From NCBI GenBank assembly GCA_002009975.1, contig MTLP01000009.1, positions 62,001 through 126,000 on the forward strand: a stretch of DNA of 64,000 bases, written 5' to 3'. The DNA comes from Thermococcus sp. JdFR-02. GTDB lineage: Archaea; Methanobacteriota_B; Thermococci; Thermococcales; Thermococcaceae. A program made the translations under genes and the position numbers. Below, piece by piece: positions 35,126-46,949 of this stretch (its first letter is position 1; every line of letters starts with the position of its first letter). The notes under the pieces are model-generated. The model had not been told where the DNA came from. It ran no database searches and worked only from the letters and a program-made list of their open reading frames with translations.

Positions 35126-35677
35126 CTATGAACATTGAATTTCTCCATCTTCGTTTCCTGTCCAAGAACAGCTATCTATCAAAGTACCATTTGAAGCATA
35201 AAGATATGCAGTATCTCCATTATTGTTCCATACAGGAGAACCTCGTCCCCAGTATAATTCCGTATCACTATTAGTTCCACTTCCTGTATGTACTGTTACA
35301 AGTTTTCCACCTTTTAGAACAAACTCAGGAAATACATAGGTATAACCTGTTTTATCTTTTAATTGCCATCCTAAAAGGTTCTCTTCTTTACATCCAAGAT
35401 TCGCAATAATGACGTATTCATCGTTTAAATTAAGCCAATCATTTCCCTCAGCATCGTAATGTACGTAATATATTACTATTTCAGAAGTGCTATCACAAAA
35501 TTGTTTATCAATTTCGCTTGAAATTTCTTTTAAAAATTCACTAAATAGGTCATCATAATTTGAACTAACTCTAATCACGTGGTGGTATACAATGGAAGTT
35601 ATAACTAAAACAATAATGCTCATAACAACATATTCGATAGGAGCCTGTCCTTTCATCGATAGAGAAGTACCTTGCAT
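35126..35677 (-). CDS. Class III signal peptide protein with lamin-tail (LTD) domain
   Basis: 183 residues. Near the N-terminus MKGQAPIEYVVMSIIVLVIT carries a class III signal: cleavage after Gly with Gln+1 and Glu+5, then a hydrophobic helix, as in archaeal pilins. After a polar linker with one Cys, an LTD-type beta-sandwich follows (DEYVIIANLGCKEENLLGWQ, FVLKGGKLVTVHTGSG, AYLYASNGTLIDSCSWTG). The start could be ATG 35677 or, more fitting for the signal peptide, ATG 35656. It would be an externally anchored protein of unknown ligand, possibly a minor pilin or S-layer-associated tip protein. Confidence 0.78.
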   Translation of the reverse strand: MQGTSLSMKGQAPIEYVVMSIIVLVITSIVYHHVIRVSSNYDDLFSEFLKEISSEIDKQFCDSTSEIVIYYVHYDAEGNDWLNLNDEYVIIANLGCKEENLLGWQLKDKTGYTYVFPEFVLKGGKLVTVHTGSGTNSDTELYWGRGSPVWNNNGDTAYLYASNGTLIDSCSWTGNEDGEIQCS

Positions 35678-37616: not shown

Positions 37617-38832
37617 GTGTATTAAATGCGGCTATAGAGAAACTAAGGACTCAAATGAAGCATTACTTGAAAATGCTTGTCCTGTTTGTAATGGAGACAT
37701 GGTTTTAGTTAGCTTTGAGGTTAGAGAAGAAGAAACTGTTGAGGAAAAATATAGGATTGAGGAGGAAGTCTTGAATAAAGTTAAAGAGTTCTATGAAATA
37801 GGTGAAATTAAAGTCAAAGATAATGTAATAGCGATGGAAGTTATAACAATCAAGGAGTCTAATTTTGAGAAAGTTTTAGCTGAGTTTGAAAAAATTGGTC
37901 ACTGGGCAGCTTTAAAGAAGAGGAATGAAAAAATTGTGCTCTACTTATTCCCTGCTCAGCCAGCTAAAGAAGAAAATCCATTGATCGGAATTGCCTTGTT
38001 TATTGCAACAATTTTCAGCACACTTTTTGCTGGTTATGTGTTATCATTGGGATATATAGAAACGCTGGATGAGTTTAATCTGCCTGGAATAAGAAACTTA
38101 TACTTAAATGCAATTGCCTTCTCTATTAGTATTTTAGCCATACTGGGCACTCACGAAATGGGACATAAAATCGCAGCAACTATGCATAATGTTAAGTCAA
38201 CTTTTCCCTATTTCATACCAGTTCCAACAATAATTGGCACTCTAGGGGCTGTAATAAGGATCAAATCCCCTATACCAACAAGGAACGCTGCTATTGATTT
38301 GGGCGTAAGTGGTCCAATTGCTGGATTTTTAGTTGCATTACCGGTTTCAATAATTGGACTAAAGCTTTCGGTAGTGGTTCCTCTTTCCTATGTAGTTCCA
38401 AAAGAAGGGGGCTTTTATTTTGGCACCAATTTGGTATTTCTAATCATTGAGAAATATCTTTTCAAAATTGGTGAAGATTCTCTTGTATTTTTACATCCTG
38501 TTGCTATAGCTGGATGGGTTGGCATCTTAGTAACATTTTTGAATTTAATTCCAGCAGCTCAATTGGATGGTGGACATATAGCAAGGGCATTTCTCAATGA
38601 GAAAGTTCACTACTATTTAACTACTGGAATCGGATTCTCATTAATTGCATTGAGCTATCTATGGCCTGGATGGATTCTCTGGGGAATAATAATATTGCTT
38701 ATGGGAAGAGTTGGGAATCCTGGGGCATTGGATGAAGTTAGCCCAATCTCAACAAAGAGAAAGATACTTGCAATAATAGTTTTGTTGATATTTATTCTTT
38801 CAGGAACTCCTGTGCCTATTTATACAAAATAA
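37597..38832 (+). CDS. Site-2-protease-type M50 membrane metalloprotease with N-terminal zinc ribbon
   Basis: 411 residues. N-terminal ribbon YECIKCGY ... NACPVCNGDM, a soluble domain to residue 120, then six or so membrane segments with HExxH as GTHEMGHKIAATMH and the third ligand in AAQLDGGHIARAF. These are the S2P/M50 catalytic sites. Intramembrane proteases of this type release membrane-tethered regulators; no anti-sigma-like partner is obvious in archaea. ATG 37597 has GGTGAT 5 nt upstream and overlaps the end of the upstream gene by 20 bp. Confidence 0.88.
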   Translation: MTRGIYECIKCGYRETKDSNEALLENACPVCNGDMVLVSFEVREEETVEEKYRIEEEVLNKVKEFYEIGEIKVKDNVIAMEVITIKESNFEKVLAEFEKIGHWAALKKRNEKIVLYLFPAQPAKEENPLIGIALFIATIFSTLFAGYVLSLGYIETLDEFNLPGIRNLYLNAIAFSISILAILGTHEMGHKIAATMHNVKSTFPYFIPVPTIIGTLGAVIRIKSPIPTRNAAIDLGVSGPIAGFLVALPVSIIGLKLSVVVPLSYVVPKEGGFYFGTNLVFLIIEKYLFKIGEDSLVFLHPVAIAGWVGILVTFLNLIPAAQLDGGHIARAFLNEKVHYYLTTGIGFSLIALSYLWPGWILWGIIILLMGRVGNPGALDEVSPISTKRKILAIIVLLIFILSGTPVPIYTK

Positions 38833-39389
38833 TTCTTTTTCCGCTCTTTTAATATCTGTTCAATATCATAATAGATAGAATCTCTTGAAACTCCAAACAC
38901 TCTTGCAACTTCAGAGATGTTTAAAACTTTGGGGTTATAGTTAAAGATAGATAATGTTTTTGATAATAGTTCTCTACGCTCCTTTATATCGAGCTCTGCA
39001 AGTTTTCTATCATTAGTCGGAACATTATATAAAACAACGCCAACAGCATAAGTTCTTCTTGTAACAGGGGTTGTATATGTAGCAATTTCAAAATCTACTA
39101 TTTCTAGATTCTTTTTAAGTTCTTCATTAATTTCATCTTGCAATTTTTTTAATGCCCCTTCCTTACTTTTCCCAACTGCATATTCTATTATGGCTCCTTT
39201 TCTGCTTGGAGTTGTTTCATCAATTGCAATCACAATCTTTAAGCTTGCAAATGCGCCAAGACCAATTTCCACCTTTCCCTTTGATATCTTTCCATGTTTT
39301 GATATAACTTCACTTTCAATTTTCTCTTTCATATGTCTGACACAATCTTCGACATTAACAGACTCGGAGTGAAGCACTATTATTTCCAT
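38820..39389 (-). CDS. HTH protein, putative regulator of the adjacent pilin genes
   Basis: About 189 residues. The N-terminal 140 residues form an alpha/beta domain I do not recognise (VEIGLGAFASLKIVIAIDET ... GAIIEYAVGKSKEGALKKL). The C-terminus has a classic HTH: KVLNISEVARVFGVSRDSIY plus YDIEQILKER. ATG 39389 has GGTGAT 6 nt upstream. It is divergent from pilin gene 1; the region between carries four ATATA-type repeats (39404-39658) that may be its binding sites. The link to pili is inference from position. Confidence 0.72.
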   Translation of the reverse strand: MEIIVLHSESVNVEDCVRHMKEKIESEVISKHGKISKGKVEIGLGAFASLKIVIAIDETTPSRKGAIIEYAVGKSKEGALKKLQDEINEELKKNLEIVDFEIATYTTPVTRRTYAVGVVLYNVPTNDRKLAELDIKERRELLSKTLSIFNYNPKVLNISEVARVFGVSRDSIYYDIEQILKERKKNYFV

Positions 39390-39403
39390 GGATATCACCA
39401 GGC

Positions 39404-39658: not shown

Positions 39659-39733
39659 CCGCAAATTTGAGGAGAAAAGTTTATTAATAATATATTATAG
39701 AAAAATATGATACAATGTTACGGGGGTGTTTGT

Positions 39734-39913
39734 ATGAGGAGGGCTCAGGGTGCGGTTGAGTATTTGTTCATGGTAGCGGCTGTATTAATCATAGTAGCCA
39801 TCGTAGTAAGATACCTAAGAAATGCTGCAAGCAGTGCTGGTGAAACAATTTCTAGCGGTGTTACTGAGTTAAGTAAGGAGTTAAGTGAGCAATTAAGCTC
39901 AGCAACAGGATGA
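39734..39913 (+). CDS. Class III signal peptide pilin, copy 1
   Basis: 59 residues. RRAQGAVEYLFMVAAVLIIV is a class III prepilin signal: cleavage after RRA, Gln+1, Glu+5, then the hydrophobic helix that packs the pilus core. The tail is short and polar (NAASSAGETISSGVTELSKE and LSEQLSSATG). Processing would be by an archaeal prepilin peptidase (EppA/FlaK-type). GGGGGTG precedes the ATG; an upstream in-frame ATG at 39707 is less likely. Paralogue of the gene at 40082, with identical ends. Confidence 0.88.
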   Translation: MRRAQGAVEYLFMVAAVLIIVAIVVRYLRNAASSAGETISSGVTELSKELSEQLSSATG

Positions 39914-40029
39914 ATCCTCTATTTTCAAGTTTGTTATTTTTAACTATTTCTTTTAACTTGATTATGGTAGTATAATTGTTTGTGATATACTCATTTTCTT
40001 TTAATCTTGTCTCAAATTTGCGTAAAAAA

Positions 40030-40039
40030 CTATAAAAAT
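40030..40039 (+). promoter_or_regulatory. TATA box for pilin copy 2
   Basis: ACTATAAAAA at 40029-40038 sits about 45-50 nt before the ATG at 40082, a position that leaves a leader of about 20 nt containing GGAGGTG. It indicates separate transcription of the second pilin rather than read-through only. Confidence 0.5.
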
Positions 40040-40081
40040 CAGCTGAAACCAAAAGAATATTAAAGCATTGGAGGTGTTTGT

Positions 40082-40261
40082 ATGAGGAGGGCTCAGGGTG
40101 CGGTTGAGTATTTGTTCATGGTAGCGGCTGTATTAATCATAGTAGCCATCGTAGTAAGATACCTAAGAAGCTCCGCCAGCAGTGGGGGAGGAGCAATTGA
40201 GAGCGGTGTTACTGAGTTAAGTAAGGAGTTAAGTGAGCAATTAAGCTCAGCAACAGGATGA
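40082..40261 (+). CDS. Class III signal peptide pilin, copy 2
   Basis: 59 residues, too short for many gene callers. The first 97 bp including the ribosome binding site region (40073-40169) and the last 60 bp (40202-40261) are identical to copy 1; only the 32 bp between (40170-40201) differ, giving SSASSGGGAIES where copy 1 has NAASSAGETISS. The signal RRAQGAVEYLF is intact, GGAGGTG precedes the ATG. Likely a second major or minor pilin subunit. Confidence 0.88.
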   Translation: MRRAQGAVEYLFMVAAVLIIVAIVVRYLRSSASSGGGAIESGVTELSKELSEQLSSATG

Positions 40262-40281: not shown

Positions 40282-42483
40282 TTAGTCTTTTAATATGATA
40301 CTCACAAAACCAAATGGTTTATTACTTTTCAATTTTATAATGTAGAAGGTATTTGATTTAAATGAATATTCAAAATTCTGTATTTCTTGTGTTATTTCTC
40401 CAATGACATTTCCATTTATTGTAATTTGAATTGTTTGATTTTGTTCTGCAAGAAGAACTTTGAATATAATCTCATTGTACGATTTTGTAGGAACAAAGAC
40501 AATATACCCCTGTCCATTAGGTGCTAATGCATAACTCCATCTATGTAGAAGTACTTCTCTTATTACAACAGGATTTTTAAGCACGAATCCATGTATTAAA
40601 TATTTCCAATCTTTAAAGTGTGTTGCAATAATTGTATTTTTTGGCAATTTGAAATGGGACATTACTTTGTTTATTAAATGCTGATCCGTTTTATCCCACT
40701 TCATTGATAAATCATAAATCCAAATATTTGATTCAAAGTATATTAATTTATACTTTCCAAGAAAATTAAGAGGATTCAGCGGAGATACTCTAAGATCTCC
40801 AATTCCTCTCGAATCAATGTACAAAAGCACATCAGTAGTGGTCACATTTTTTTCATTAACAAATTCAATTTCTTTTAAGGTGAAGATTGGAATCCACGCT
40901 CCGGAATCATGGAACTTCGTCACCAGTACTTTGTTAGTCGGATAAGTATTAATTAAGTCGAATATATTAAGGATTTTGCTATCTATTACACTTGCTTTTT
41001 CATTGGAATAATTAATTATGTTTACATAGAACATAGGAAGCACTAAACCGATAATAAGAATTGATGTTACTTTTTTTATGCCAATGATCTTCTTAACATT
41101 TTCATAAATAATAGACGCACCAATACCTTGGAATATTGGAAGTATTGGTGTTAAAAGTAGATACACTCGCTCAGAATTCCAGATGGCGGAATAATAGGGA
41201 ATATTAACATGAAAATAAATCTTATTTAGGATTAGAAACAAAGCATAGATAATAGTTGTAAGTAGGGAGAAATAAGGTAATAAGTAGGTGTTATTGCTTT
41301 CCTTAACTAAGGGGTATAAGATGCCAACAAAAAAGGAAATTCCCAAAAATAGCTGTCCATTATAGATAAATGTATCTTTTAAGATTTCAAGAAACCAGTG
41401 CATATTGTCCTTAAGTGCATACTTTGGAAAATTAGAGATAGGAGCGGAGTATGTGGACATATTAATGCTCATAGGGAATTCTAAAAGATAATAAATCAAA
41501 AAACTTCCAAGAAGCTGTGTTACAAATATGCCAATATAAAAGCTTGCACTTTTTCTGTCCGTGAATGTGTATAAGAATGCAAGCATTATTGCATATATCT
41601 GGAAAAGTAAATATGAATAAGGATGGACAATCAGCATACTAGTTACGGATAATAAGATCAAAAAAACATGATTATAACTTCTTTCATTTTGAAATATAAG
41701 GTTGTATAGAAAAATAGAAACTAGGAATAAATAATAATTAAAAAAAGCAGGAAGAAGAGGATAATTGAGATAGTAATAGTACAAATAAGAGAGTGGTGTT
41801 ATTATTGTTGCGAATATTCCTGCATTTTTGTTAAAAATATTTTTAGTGACTAAATAGGTAGTTAATGGAAGGATAAACCAAATAAAGAGTTTTAAAATTA
41901 ACATAGCTTGTCCGATATTATTTCTACCTACTAAACATATCCAAGCAATTATAGAATGATAACCTGCAGGATAAGTCTTTATTCTAGGATTTGCATAATT
42001 CGGAATATTTTGTATAAACAGAGTATTCTCTTTTAAAATTTCTAAAACTTTATAAGCATGAAAGACTGGATCTTTATGTGCGTATGCAGGTATTTGTGCA
42101 AAAGGTATTTTAAGCCCAACAGCGAGAAATACTGCTAAAATTAGCCAAATAATAGTTATTTTGTCCAATTCTTTTAAATTGACCTTAATCTCTCTCTTTG
42201 ATAAAATAACAGTCAAAATTGCCATTATTGTGTAAGAATGTTCTAAAGAAACATCTAACCAGCTTAGAATATGCATTAGAATGATCACAATCCCTAAACC
42301 AATTGCGGGGGCAATTGCTGCCTTTTCAATTAAATCGAAATCTTTGTTGCTAAGTATCAAAAATCCAAAATACCAAGGCAGGAGAAGAGATAAGTAAGGG
42401 CTTGATTTAGTAAGCAGTATTACTAGTATTGAAAATATTAAGAGCTTAATTCTAAGATTCAGTAAATTGGATTGTAATTTCAT
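40282..42483 (-). CDS. Large multi-spanning membrane protein, GT-C-like glycosyltransferase candidate
   Basis: 733 residues with about a dozen membrane segments in the first 500 residues and a soluble C-terminal domain of about 200. The first luminal loop has YAHKDPVFHAYKVLEIL, an acidic motif of the kind seen in GT-C enzymes that use polyprenyl-phosphate sugars; the family is not recognised with certainty. Its 5' end overlaps the 3' end of the GT39-like gene by 32 bp, so it is in that operon. A role in glycosylating the neighbouring pilins or other surface proteins is inference. Confidence 0.6.
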   Translation of the reverse strand: MKLQSNLLNLRIKLLIFSILVILLTKSSPYLSLLLPWYFGFLILSNKDFDLIEKAAIAPAIGLGIVIILMHILSWLDVSLEHSYTIMAILTVILSKREIKVNLKELDKITIIWLILAVFLAVGLKIPFAQIPAYAHKDPVFHAYKVLEILKENTLFIQNIPNYANPRIKTYPAGYHSIIAWICLVGRNNIGQAMLILKLFIWFILPLTTYLVTKNIFNKNAGIFATIITPLSYLYYYYLNYPLLPAFFNYYLFLVSIFLYNLIFQNERSYNHVFLILLSVTSMLIVHPYSYLLFQIYAIMLAFLYTFTDRKSASFYIGIFVTQLLGSFLIYYLLEFPMSINMSTYSAPISNFPKYALKDNMHWFLEILKDTFIYNGQLFLGISFFVGILYPLVKESNNTYLLPYFSLLTTIIYALFLILNKIYFHVNIPYYSAIWNSERVYLLLTPILPIFQGIGASIIYENVKKIIGIKKVTSILIIGLVLPMFYVNIINYSNEKASVIDSKILNIFDLINTYPTNKVLVTKFHDSGAWIPIFTLKEIEFVNEKNVTTTDVLLYIDSRGIGDLRVSPLNPLNFLGKYKLIYFESNIWIYDLSMKWDKTDQHLINKVMSHFKLPKNTIIATHFKDWKYLIHGFVLKNPVVIREVLLHRWSYALAPNGQGYIVFVPTKSYNEIIFKVLLAEQNQTIQITINGNVIGEITQEIQNFEYSFKSNTFYIIKLKSNKPFGFVSIILKD

Positions 42484-44710
42484 TAGAAATCACCGTTAAT
42501 ATTAATTTTGTATCTTTTTCTCTTGTTATGAATTTTCCAGAAATTTTAAGTGTACCTCCTTTTAGTGAGAACAGTCTTATAATGTTAACCTCATTTTTTG
42601 GTAATGTTATTATCGAATATAACTCTCCATCTAGTTCTATTATCTTGCTAACTCCTTCAAGCTCTATTACGAATTCTAAACCATTAGGAATGTTATTTAT
42701 TTTTATTTTGTTCCCGGTCTTATTTAGTCTTAATGCACTTATTTTTGAATCGTTTGAGTAAAACGTGAGATTGTACGTGTTATTGCTGATAAGGTAAATT
42801 CTACAACGTCTATTAAATATGACATTTCCAATTTGTGGGTAGATATTAATCAATTTGTAATCTTTGTTTAAGATTTCAAGTTTTCCCCACCAGCTGTGGA
42901 ACGTCAATATTTTTGGCTTTGCTTCTTTTATGGAATATATCTCAATCACTTCTCCCTTTTTATTGTAGGAGTCTCCATAGAGTATTGAATAATTTGCTCT
43001 TAAATTTTGAATCAAATTCATGTATTCTCCTCTCAACTTATACTGGGAAACAAAAGCATAAGCCCACGTACTTACTATAATGTGATTAATGCCTTTTTCT
43101 TTAACCTTTTCAATAAGTTCTGAGGAGTTCATTCCATTTAGAATTAAACCAAAGTTATCAATATAATAAGGCACAGTGTCCAAGTTTAAATAAAAGTTAT
43201 TCATTGGATTTATAGAGTATATTTTTCTCCCAAAATTGTTGCTATAAATATACTGTCTCAGATCTTCCCTTAGTTCTTTAGCATGAGGAGAGGAGGCTAT
43301 TTTTAACTCTCCTTGTGGAGCCACAAAAGCAAGTGCATAATCTGCTATACCAAGGAAAAGTAGTACAGATACTGTTATTGCAAGAGCTTGTCTTCTGTTG
43401 AGATTCATTTTTGAAAAATAATATGCAGCCAGAATATATAAAACTAACAATGTGGCTGTTAGAAATCTCTCATTCACTATGGCAGGGGTTAGGATATATA
43501 TAACGAGGCTAGTTAAGAACAAAAAGGATAGAGCATCTGTTATCTTGTCCTCTTTTACCTTAATCTCTTTTGAGAACTTGAAGAGAAGTATAAGGAGTAT
43601 TAAAATAATTGTTAAATCAAATAATAAAAATTCAAGTTCGCTTGCTTGTACCTTGCTTAGTTTATCCCCTAAAAAGTCAAAGAAATTAAGAACCGGATTG
43701 TATCTTCCTCCCTGGATTCCATAAGTTTGGGTGATGTATGAAGGGCTTACAAGAATACCAAAGATACCCTCTATTAGAAGCTTTGGTAAAAGTACAAAAA
43801 AACCAAGCTTTAATGGAATTTTAATATTTAAAGCTAGGATTTTTATAATTTTAAAAAGTTTATCAACATAAGAAATCTTGTAGACATATAAAATTAAAAA
43901 TCCCCAGATCAGCAGAAAAATAGCTATTGGGACAATGTTTCCTACCACAGTTGCTTCGTGTAAAATTGGCACTATGAAAACTTTTCTAACGAACTCTGTT
44001 GGATAAAGTGAGACGGTAATAATCATTAGAATGGCTGTTGCAGTTAAGGAGAATAAAACGAAGAATACTTGTTTTTTGTTCAATACAACACCTATCACAT
44101 TTTTTACATAATTCCATAACTCTGGAAAGAGATAGAAGTTTATGGTTAGGAATAAACCTACTGTAAAAGGAATTGCAATAAACTTCACTGCTGTTGCAAA
44201 TCCCGCAAAAAAGAGTGAATAATACGCATAAACCAGTTTGTTAGTTTTTACAAGCTTGATAAGATAGTAGATCGAAAGCAATACAAAAGGTTCCATGATA
44301 CTTTCAAACATTACTAAGGTGTTTACATGAACGAGATTTGGTTCAAGAGAGAGAATCAATGCAAGAAAGATGCCGAGTTTTTTATCTTTTAACTCTTTTC
44401 CAATATAGTATGCAATTAAAACTGACAGGGATCCAAAAAGTAATGACAATCCTCTACCAGCTATATAATTCATCCCAAAAATTCTAAGCCATAAAGCGAG
44501 CAGATAATAATAAAAGGGTGGGTGGACAGCAAAGATATCTCGATAAGGGAGATACCCTTGGTTGATTAGTCTAGCAATTAGAAGATATGTGCCCTCATCG
44601 TAATCCCAATATTCGTTCATTGGGGTTAATAGTGGAAGTCTAATTAATGTGTATAGGAGTAGAATAGCCCCAACACCGAGCAACTCCCATTTATTCTCTT
44701 TAATATCCAT
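42452..44710 (-). CDS. GT39/ArnT-like membrane glycosyltransferase, copy 1
   Basis: 752 residues. N-terminal GT-C signature: Asp-Glu in YWDYDEGTYLLIARLINQGY followed by HPPFYYYLLALWLRIFG, as in ArnT/PMT-type enzymes that transfer sugars from dolichol-phosphate donors. About 12-13 membrane segments, then a C-terminal beta-rich domain outside the membrane from about residue 480. It is 4 bp after the paralogue at 44715. The pair shares the catalytic loop almost unchanged but diverges elsewhere. Confidence 0.82.
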   Translation of the reverse strand: MDIKENKWELLGVGAILLLYTLIRLPLLTPMNEYWDYDEGTYLLIARLINQGYLPYRDIFAVHPPFYYYLLALWLRIFGMNYIAGRGLSLLFGSLSVLIAYYIGKELKDKKLGIFLALILSLEPNLVHVNTLVMFESIMEPFVLLSIYYLIKLVKTNKLVYAYYSLFFAGFATAVKFIAIPFTVGLFLTINFYLFPELWNYVKNVIGVVLNKKQVFFVLFSLTATAILMIITVSLYPTEFVRKVFIVPILHEATVVGNIVPIAIFLLIWGFLILYVYKISYVDKLFKIIKILALNIKIPLKLGFFVLLPKLLIEGIFGILVSPSYITQTYGIQGGRYNPVLNFFDFLGDKLSKVQASELEFLLFDLTIILILLILLFKFSKEIKVKEDKITDALSFLFLTSLVIYILTPAIVNERFLTATLLVLYILAAYYFSKMNLNRRQALAITVSVLLFLGIADYALAFVAPQGELKIASSPHAKELREDLRQYIYSNNFGRKIYSINPMNNFYLNLDTVPYYIDNFGLILNGMNSSELIEKVKEKGINHIIVSTWAYAFVSQYKLRGEYMNLIQNLRANYSILYGDSYNKKGEVIEIYSIKEAKPKILTFHSWWGKLEILNKDYKLINIYPQIGNVIFNRRCRIYLISNNTYNLTFYSNDSKISALRLNKTGNKIKINNIPNGLEFVIELEGVSKIIELDGELYSIITLPKNEVNIIRLFSLKGGTLKISGKFITREKDTKLILTVISNEITIQFTES

Positions 44711-46850
44711 GCTTTCACCCCATAGAAAACTTAACTTCTTTTCCGTGAATTCTGATCTCTCTACCGGAGATTTTTGTAATTATTAAGTTCTCCCCATCTA
44801 TTTTTATTTTTTGGTCTCCAATGATAACAATCAAACTGTCAAATCTTCTTGTTTCTCCTGTTTTTATTAGTGTATTATCCTCATCAAGTAAGCTAATATC
44901 GGTGAAAAACCTCAATGTAATAGAAAGTGGGTTTATAAATTCAAATTTTATCCCCTCTTTACTGAGTATGGCTGAGAATTCTATGCTATTTGCCTCATCG
45001 GAGTATTGAGTTATTTTATAGGTATCTTGTTCTATTTTAACGATTTTAGTCTTAAAGTTATAAGATATGTTGTTCTTATTTACAAAAAGCTCTCCAAGGG
45101 TTCCATTAAAAGAAAGCAACAGATTTCCAGAATATGATTTGATTTTTATTGGGAATAAGCTTTCTTCAAGTTTGTAAAGTTCAATAATATCTCCTACCCG
45201 ATATGCGCTTGCATATATGATAGTGTGGTTATTAAGCAAAGTCGTTGATATTGCCTTCAATCTTTCTCTTTGCTTTTGGCTTGACCAGACTATATAGCAC
45301 CAACTGCTGCAAATGAAATAATCAATATTTTCTTCCCTTAAAATGGAAAACAATGCAATTTCATTCATATCTTTAAGTACTATGAGTCCATAGAGGTCTA
45401 AGTATTTGGGCGTCGTATTTAGATTTAGATAATAAGTGTTCATAGGATTTGCAGAGTAGAATTTTCCCTCAATACCGCTCTCTTTTAGATAGATCGATAA
45501 TTCATCTCGCAACTCTTTTGAATAACCACCATACTTTCGTATTATTGCTCTCTGCTTGGAATACCTGTATATAATCCCAAAATCAGCTATTGAAAGGAAT
45601 AACACTCCAGCTAACACAAGAGCTATTGCCTGTTTTTTTGTTAATTTAACACTTAAAAGAAAGTCAAGCAGTATTAGGTACAAAATCACCCACATTGGAA
45701 TGAGGAACTTCTCAAATGGGACTATTGGGGCTATGAAGAAGTAAACAAAGAAGCTAACTAAAAAGAGGAGTGTTAATTTTTGCCGAATTGCACTTTTTTG
45801 AGAAGATATCTTAAACAAACTCACTATTAAAGTAAATAAGAGCAAAAGAAAGAGAGGAAACATAAAGAGTAAATCATCCAGTTCTCCAGAGGATATATTG
45901 TGGATAATGCTTCCAATATACCAAAAGAGGTTAACTATTGGCAACATTCTTGTGCCTTGAATCAAATATGTTTGGCTGATATATTTGGGAGTTATGAATA
46001 ATCCGAAGAGTCCTTCTATAATAATTTTTGGTAAAAGTAAAATAGCGCCATATTTTAGGACTTCTTTGATATCCCTAATAATCAGAACTGCACTTTTTAA
46101 GAAGGTACTAATAAATCTTAATCTAAACAATATTGTAGTGAAGATGAGCCATATCAAAATTAAAAGAATGGAAGGCAAGATTTGGTAAAAATTATCTAGT
46201 TCATAAAATCCGGGCACAACCATTATCTCTTTAGTTGCTTCTATTGGAAGTAAAATAAAAATAGAGGATGCAATCAAAATCATAAGAATATACGCTATCG
46301 TGATTACTTTTATTTGTTCTTTATTTAGCAGAATTTGCTTTGTTTTTGCTAAATATTCATGGAGTTTTTTACTTTTAAAAATAAGCAATGCCAGATAAAT
46401 GGAAATGGCATAGGGTATTATTGTAAATTTGACTGTAGAACCCAAACCGACTAAAAATAGAGAAAGGTATGCATATTTCTCTTTTGTTGTTTTTAGGTAC
46501 TTAATGAAATAATAGAGCGAAAAAAGAACAAAAAACTCTATGAAAGTTTCTTGAACTGCTAAGAAATTTGTAAAAAGTAAAATGGGATTCATGGCTAAAA
46601 ATCCGGCGAATATTATTCCCAATTTCTCGTTTTTTACTTCTCTTCCAATATAATAGGCGAGTATTAAGGAGACGAACCCTAAGGATACTGAGAACAATCG
46701 TCCGCTGATATAATTGTCTCCGAATAATCTAAATATCAATGCTAGAATATAGTAATACAAAGGCGGATGAACGGCAAAGATGTCCCGATAGGGGAGATAC
46801 CCTTGGTTGATTAGTCTAGCAATTAGAAGATATGTGCCCTCATCGTAATC
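44547..46850. repeat. 59-bp identical segment shared by the two GT39-like genes
   Basis: Positions 44547-44605 and 46792-46850 are identical over 59 bp, including synonymous sites. Both encode DYDEGTYLLIARLINQGYLP around the catalytic Asp-Glu. Flanking sequence on both sides is clearly diverged. This fits recent local gene conversion between tandem paralogues. Confidence 0.8.
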
Positions 46851-46949
46851 TACATTTTCATCGAAATTATGTAAAACTAAATATGTTCGCGTAAATAAGT
46901 AGAATAGGATTATAACAAGGAATGCAATAATAACTTTTCTATTTTTCAC
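44715..46949 (-). CDS. GT39/ArnT-like membrane glycosyltransferase, copy 2
   Basis: 744 residues, paralogous to the gene at 42452. Same GT-C signature (NVDYDEGTYLLIARLINQGY, HPPLYYYILALIFRLFGDNY), same membrane layout, and a C-terminal extracytoplasmic beta-rich region. GTG 46949 is the start, with GGTGAT 5 nt upstream. First gene of a three-gene minus-strand operon (46949-40282). The donor and acceptor are unknown; archaeal cell-surface N- or O-glycosylation is the likely process. Confidence 0.82.
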   Translation of the reverse strand: MKNRKVIIAFLVIILFYLFTRTYLVLHNFDENVDYDEGTYLLIARLINQGYLPYRDIFAVHPPLYYYILALIFRLFGDNYISGRLFSVSLGFVSLILAYYIGREVKNEKLGIIFAGFLAMNPILLFTNFLAVQETFIEFFVLFSLYYFIKYLKTTKEKYAYLSLFLVGLGSTVKFTIIPYAISIYLALLIFKSKKLHEYLAKTKQILLNKEQIKVITIAYILMILIASSIFILLPIEATKEIMVVPGFYELDNFYQILPSILLILIWLIFTTILFRLRFISTFLKSAVLIIRDIKEVLKYGAILLLPKIIIEGLFGLFITPKYISQTYLIQGTRMLPIVNLFWYIGSIIHNISSGELDDLLFMFPLFLLLLFTLIVSLFKISSQKSAIRQKLTLLFLVSFFVYFFIAPIVPFEKFLIPMWVILYLILLDFLLSVKLTKKQAIALVLAGVLFLSIADFGIIYRYSKQRAIIRKYGGYSKELRDELSIYLKESGIEGKFYSANPMNTYYLNLNTTPKYLDLYGLIVLKDMNEIALFSILREENIDYFICSSWCYIVWSSQKQRERLKAISTTLLNNHTIIYASAYRVGDIIELYKLEESLFPIKIKSYSGNLLLSFNGTLGELFVNKNNISYNFKTKIVKIEQDTYKITQYSDEANSIEFSAILSKEGIKFEFINPLSITLRFFTDISLLDEDNTLIKTGETRRFDSLIVIIGDQKIKIDGENLIITKISGREIRIHGKEVKFSMG

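Follow-up and report, generated by a model that had tools for sequence, protein, structure and literature searches.

We describe two tandem pilin genes, copy A and copy B, that are identical base for base at both ends and differ only in a short internal cassette. The pair lies in a stretch of Thermococcus sp. JdFR-02 DNA (contig MTLP01000009.1, positions 62,001-126,000 of the forward strand). We refer to this whole 64,000-nucleotide stretch as the window, and coordinates without a prefix are window coordinates. With a probability that we put slightly below 60%, A and B are old duplicates. Both ends would have been homogenised by gene conversion, the cassette would have been retained in two different forms, and the products would be two co-assembling isoforms. 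We favour a reading of the mosaic as concerted evolution in which one difference was retained. Note that these are known patterns, not a new kind of system. The comparison set comprised 94 genomes of the family Thermococcaceae, assigned by named relatives, in which this genus is represented by one genome.

Each gene is 180 bp long, including the stop codon, and the offset between them is 348 bp. The parts of the mosaic are listed below.

39734-39913, forward strand: pilin copy A, 59 amino acids, with a class III signal peptide; the first pilin of the locus
40082-40261, forward strand: pilin copy B, 59 amino acids, with a class III signal peptide and its own operator-like palindrome
39725-39821, base-identical to 40073-40169, forward strand: 5' block of 97 bp, of which 88 bp are coding and 9 bp precede the ATG
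39854-39913, base-identical to 40202-40261, forward strand: 3' block of 60 bp, including the stop codon
39822-39853, forward strand: variable cassette of A, codons 30-40, NAASSAGETIS
40170-40201, forward strand: variable cassette of B, codons 30-40, SSASSGGGAIE
Peptides that tell the copies apart: NAASSAGETISSGVTELSK for A and SSASSGGGAIESGVTELSK for B

The 5' block holds the end of the 5' leader, the signal peptide and the core helix. All 13 mismatches between A and B fall inside 32 bp that begin and end with a mismatch, at 39822/40170 and 39853/40201. The probability of 13 random differences in 180 bp landing inside such an interval is ~1e-9. Within codons 30-40, eight codons differ; six of these change the residue and two are silent. 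An earlier reading of this DNA, made from the sequence only, had reported tandem genes with a 32-bp internal difference, and its coordinates and lengths proved exact. It also gave the second gene 59 codons. This is correct but applies to both genes, since copy A has the same length from the shared ATG. An alternative reading of copy A would give 68 amino acids from 39707.

We infer that gene conversion is the cause of the mosaic. The key comparison is with G088, a relative from a neighbouring genus; the DHH-family protein encoded near its pilins shares 86% identity with that of the window. The ends of A and B share 69-77% nucleotide identity with G088 pilin copies 1 and 3, while the ends of A and B are 100% identical to each other. 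Hence, constraint does not explain the end identity, and paralogues are closer than orthologues in the segments taken as converted. Silent sites show the same restriction to the cassette. Among the five cassette codons with the same residue in both copies, two differ silently, compared with none among 46 such codons elsewhere (P = 0.008). The narrow divergence peak, with 13/13 differences in 32 bp, thus includes silent sites, and adaptive change alone does not explain it. Beyond the open reading frame and the 9 bp in front of it, the flanks of A and B have no significant similarity, except for a shared 12-bp operator-like palindrome. This argues against recent tandem duplication.

These data bear directly on a different scenario, in which the genes duplicated recently and only the middle then came under strong positive selection or targeted mutation. 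That six of the eight differing codons change the residue is in its favour. However, neither the two silent differences in the cassette nor flanks that are unrelated right outside the reading frame would be expected, and we consider this scenario improbable. Furthermore, no local mutator is known in these archaea. The sequence-only reading had left open whether the ends were converted or the middle was targeted for divergence. Conversion of the ends is favoured by the confinement of silent differences to the cassette, the unrelated flanks, the diverged ends of the orthologues and a second tract in G088.

The syntenic array of G088 contains three pilins (L043:6770-7562). Between about -59 and +37, a region covering promoter, leader and signal peptide, copies 1 and 3 do not differ. 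Past +37 there are two mismatches, then a match again to about +73, and then divergence. In a test of the longest identical run, P was ~5e-5. The sequences thus point to a second, conversion-like homogenised 5' tract, with boundaries unlike those of the A/B tract. Copies 2 and 3 of the array have a similar C-terminal protein segment. The G088 tract also speaks to whether the A/B mosaic is an assembly artefact, in which the merging of reads from two diverged copies made the ends falsely appear identical. In favour of an artefact, the JdFR-02 assembly is in 44 contigs. Conversely, the repeat is just 180 bp with unique flanks, and homogenised ends around a preserved middle are not what an assembler would normally produce. 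A similar tract occurs in G088, whose contig C1 is 1.96 Mb. We regard an artefact as very improbable.

Another alternative is that the reading frames of A and B were once alike throughout, by conversion or duplication, and that one 32-bp middle, probably that of B, was then overwritten from a diverged third pilin. This could have happened by a short conversion or by import, with the donor in another strain or species. A single short, late event would suffice. In addition, guanine-plus-cytosine content is 64% in the B cassette, compared with 42% in the A cassette and 44% in the remainder of the gene. However, no donor of the B cassette was found in the genome or at the locus in the 94 family genomes. 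The unrelated flanks disfavour recent duplication, so whole-gene conversion would still be needed. Cassette identity is 61% between A and B, 61% between A and G088 copy 1, and 55% between B and G088 copy 3. At the informative cassette sites (6/6, spread over four codons), A groups with copy 1 and B with copy 3, which suggests that both cassettes are old. On balance, we see cassette replacement as unlikely, though the most serious of the alternatives.

Several points weigh against our preferred reading of old duplicates with converted ends. The site pairing is thin evidence, and only a hint, for an old cassette difference: the orthology signal of the cassette is small, with three full and three partial sites in four codons. 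A single replacement of the B cassette explains the sequences almost as well. Because the genus is represented by one genome, ongoing conversion was not seen directly. Selection on the cassette, and co-assembly of the products, are steps that we presume. Two further possibilities were set aside. We do not claim conversion in a defined direction, with the 5' part from A and the 3' part from B, since the distances of G088 copies 1 and 3 from the ends are about equal. As for the C1 paralogue, which is 60% identical and has a similar C-terminus, inter-locus conversion with it is not recent because only 36/54 bp are identical in the 3' part.

Each gene has its own putative control region. The elements are as follows.

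39660-39671, no strand assigned: operator-like palindrome CGCAAATTTGAG, starting at -74 from the ATG of A and matching CTCAAATTTGAG at 11/12 positions
40011-40022, no strand assigned: operator-like palindrome CTCAAATTTGCG, starting at -71 from the ATG of B and matching CTCAAATTTGAG at 11/12 positions
39675-39689, forward strand: probable transcription factor B recognition element (BRE) and TATA box of A, AAAAGTTTATTAATA, assigned by eye and at the TATA position of relatives
40024-40039, forward strand: probable BRE/TATA of B, AAAAAACTATAAAAAT, assigned by eye
38820-39398, reverse strand: divergent gene, product with a helix-turn-helix-like C-terminus, candidate pilin regulator

The pattern C[GT]CAAATTTG[AC]G, which is its own reverse complement, occurs only twice in the window, at 39660 and 40011. 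We scored the first-pilin promoters of 62 genomes over the 12 positions. Just upstream of the TATA box, 34/62 have a palindrome that agrees with CTCAAATTTGAG at 10 or more positions, compared with ~0.3% of shuffles. The palindrome is not present at the second pilins of other genomes, where the best matches are chance-like. Since B has the first-pilin palindrome, it differs from the usual second pilin and counts as another unit of the first kind, with a promoter of its own. In many relatives, a second conserved element, near CAATATTG, lies ~20-30 bp further upstream of the palindrome.

The divergent gene is present in 85/94 family genomes, and class III pilins follow immediately beyond it in nearly all of the stretches retrieved. 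A Pfam scan of its product gave no family above the cut-off. That this product binds the palindrome, or regulates the pilins, is a guess. In the usual Thermococcus-like layout, the first pilin is followed, 37-119 bp behind, by a strongly diverged second pilin. We compared the first two pilins over an 87-bp 5' region in the 66 genomes with at least two pilins at the locus. Identity was 46-75% in 65/66; JdFR-02 was the sole outlier, at 98%. In most genomes, the similarity of the two does not exceed that of pairs taken from different genomes, and general conversion between first and second pilins was therefore rejected. Conversion of the signal peptide in G034 was likewise discarded. There, the protein of the second pilin resembles that of the first (MKRKAQGAVEYLFMI), but the codons differ; hence, the pair is not the result of recent conversion. 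At the same locus, the genomes of genus g5 among L144-L154, L166 and L167 have pilins of ~130-165 amino acids rather than ~60. Therefore, the pilin body changes between genera while the place is conserved.

Because A and B each carry the operator-like palindrome and a TATA-like element, both genes look expressed. This matters for a further alternative: antigenic variation, with a single expressed gene that receives cassettes from the other gene or from further partial copies. A variable segment between identical blocks resembles the pilE/pilS system of Neisseria (PMC4877100), which also has conversion in pilin genes and a conserved N-terminal part. Unlike in Neisseria, both genes are complete with their own elements, no silent partial copies were found in the genome, and conversion appears to homogenise, not to diversify. 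The sequence-only reading had raised silent copies elsewhere, and our genome search found none. No further copy of A or B was found in the assembly. The next DNA match, 78% over 63 bp, is between copy A and the 5' end of another pilin, beside the prepilin peptidase gene, and other protein paralogues in the genome are at most 60% identical. Silent-copy variation is thus the least credible explanation that we considered.

The identification of A and B as pilins, already proposed from the sequence, is supported by the Pfam class III signal peptide family PF04021 (E 9e-10, 38.6 bits for copy A). Both proteins score well above the cut-off of 23.7 bits. The signal-peptide context, RRA/QGAVEYLF, has Q at +1 and E at +5, followed by a hydrophobic helix, as in class III signals. 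AlphaFold predicts a single continuous helix, residues 2-58, with a mean predicted local distance difference test score of 88. Among solved structures, the best match was no better than E 0.54. Plasmid records gave no match, nor did a single-protein scan of genome contigs; an alignment-based scan of such contigs gave matches mostly in Thermococcaceae. Machinery for pilus assembly is encoded in the genome, which has several pilus-type ATPases and one above-cut-off match to the prepilin peptidase family. The latter is on contig C20, directly behind another class III pilin.

L040:5428-5592 and L040:5602-6729: class III pilin and, directly after it, the prepilin peptidase gene

Makarova et al. (PMC4858521) predicted that, in Thermococci, small pilins encoded singly or in tandem at a distance from the machinery locus are the major pilins of clade-1 pili. 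Judged by sequence, A and B fit this description. Like the tandem class III pilins of that study, they are small, predicted to be major and located away from the machinery, and such pilins often have several paralogues. Unlike the usual second pilin of Thermococci, which is strongly diverged and lacks the operator-like palindrome, B is nearly identical to A and has the palindrome.

The following sequence of events would account for the data. The family's first pilin gene may have duplicated long ago into two copies, each with a promoter and operator, and the flanks may then have diverged past recognition. Recent conversion between the reading frames would have copied both the 3' part and the 5' part, the latter encoding the signal peptide and core helix. 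The 32-bp middle would either have escaped conversion or have had its conversion selected against. Hence, the cell would make two single-helix pilins whose assembly parts are interchangeable and which differ in residues 30-40, just outside the core helix. The identical ends would keep A and B interchangeable for processing and assembly. Probably, both are expressed together and enter the same kind of filament, perhaps tuning its surface or flexibility. We infer, in short, a pair of co-regulated, co-assembling isoforms. A bolder version is that conversion is ongoing, and keeps the ends of a two-pilin filament interchangeable, that the cassette is selected to differ and marks or tunes the surface, and that such conversion recurs in Thermococcaceae arrays. 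We offer this only tentatively and think it doubtful.

Related systems are known. Duplicates under conversion with a selected target site, including the human red/green opsins, have been described (Innan; Teshima and Innan; reviewed in PMC3924837). These share with A and B a mostly homogenised sequence, a narrow divergence peak and, in the converted parts, paralogues more alike than orthologues. Here, however, the genes are archaeal, the pattern is confined to a gene of 180 bp, any selection on the peak is presumed, and a single genome is involved. Haloferax volcanii has six adhesion pilins, PilA1-PilA6, each able to form a pilus, and their conserved H-domain appears to keep them interchangeable (PMC4371748). 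The H-domains of A and B are identical. In Haloferax, there are six genes with larger C-terminal differences, whereas here there are two genes for 59-residue proteins with class III signals (PF04021), the C-terminus is identical too, and the internal cassette is the sole difference. A precedent for a two-subunit archaeal type IV-like filament is the archaellum of Methanocaldococcus villosus, built from two alternating, paralogous archaellins encoded in one operon (PMC8821640). That filament is an archaellum, while a pilus is at issue here, and co-assembly of A and B is a proposal.

The pair appears to be a compact natural case of conversion and selection opposed within a 180-bp archaeal gene. 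It also suggests which part of a single-helix pilin would differ in function, namely one short stretch. The family-wide operator-like palindrome and the conserved divergent gene, a possible regulator, could be tested in the genetically tractable Thermococcus kodakarensis.

Two observations concern the surroundings. Beyond the pilins, on the reverse strand (40282-46949), three consecutive genes encode large membrane proteins, including two PMT_2-type glycosyltransferases, and the order in G088 is the same. These proteins could act on surface proteins. On the other side of the locus, 35126-35677 (reverse strand) encodes a protein that joins a class III-like N-terminus to a lamin-tail domain (PF00932), and a similar protein is encoded at the syntenic place in G088 (L043:11440-11973).
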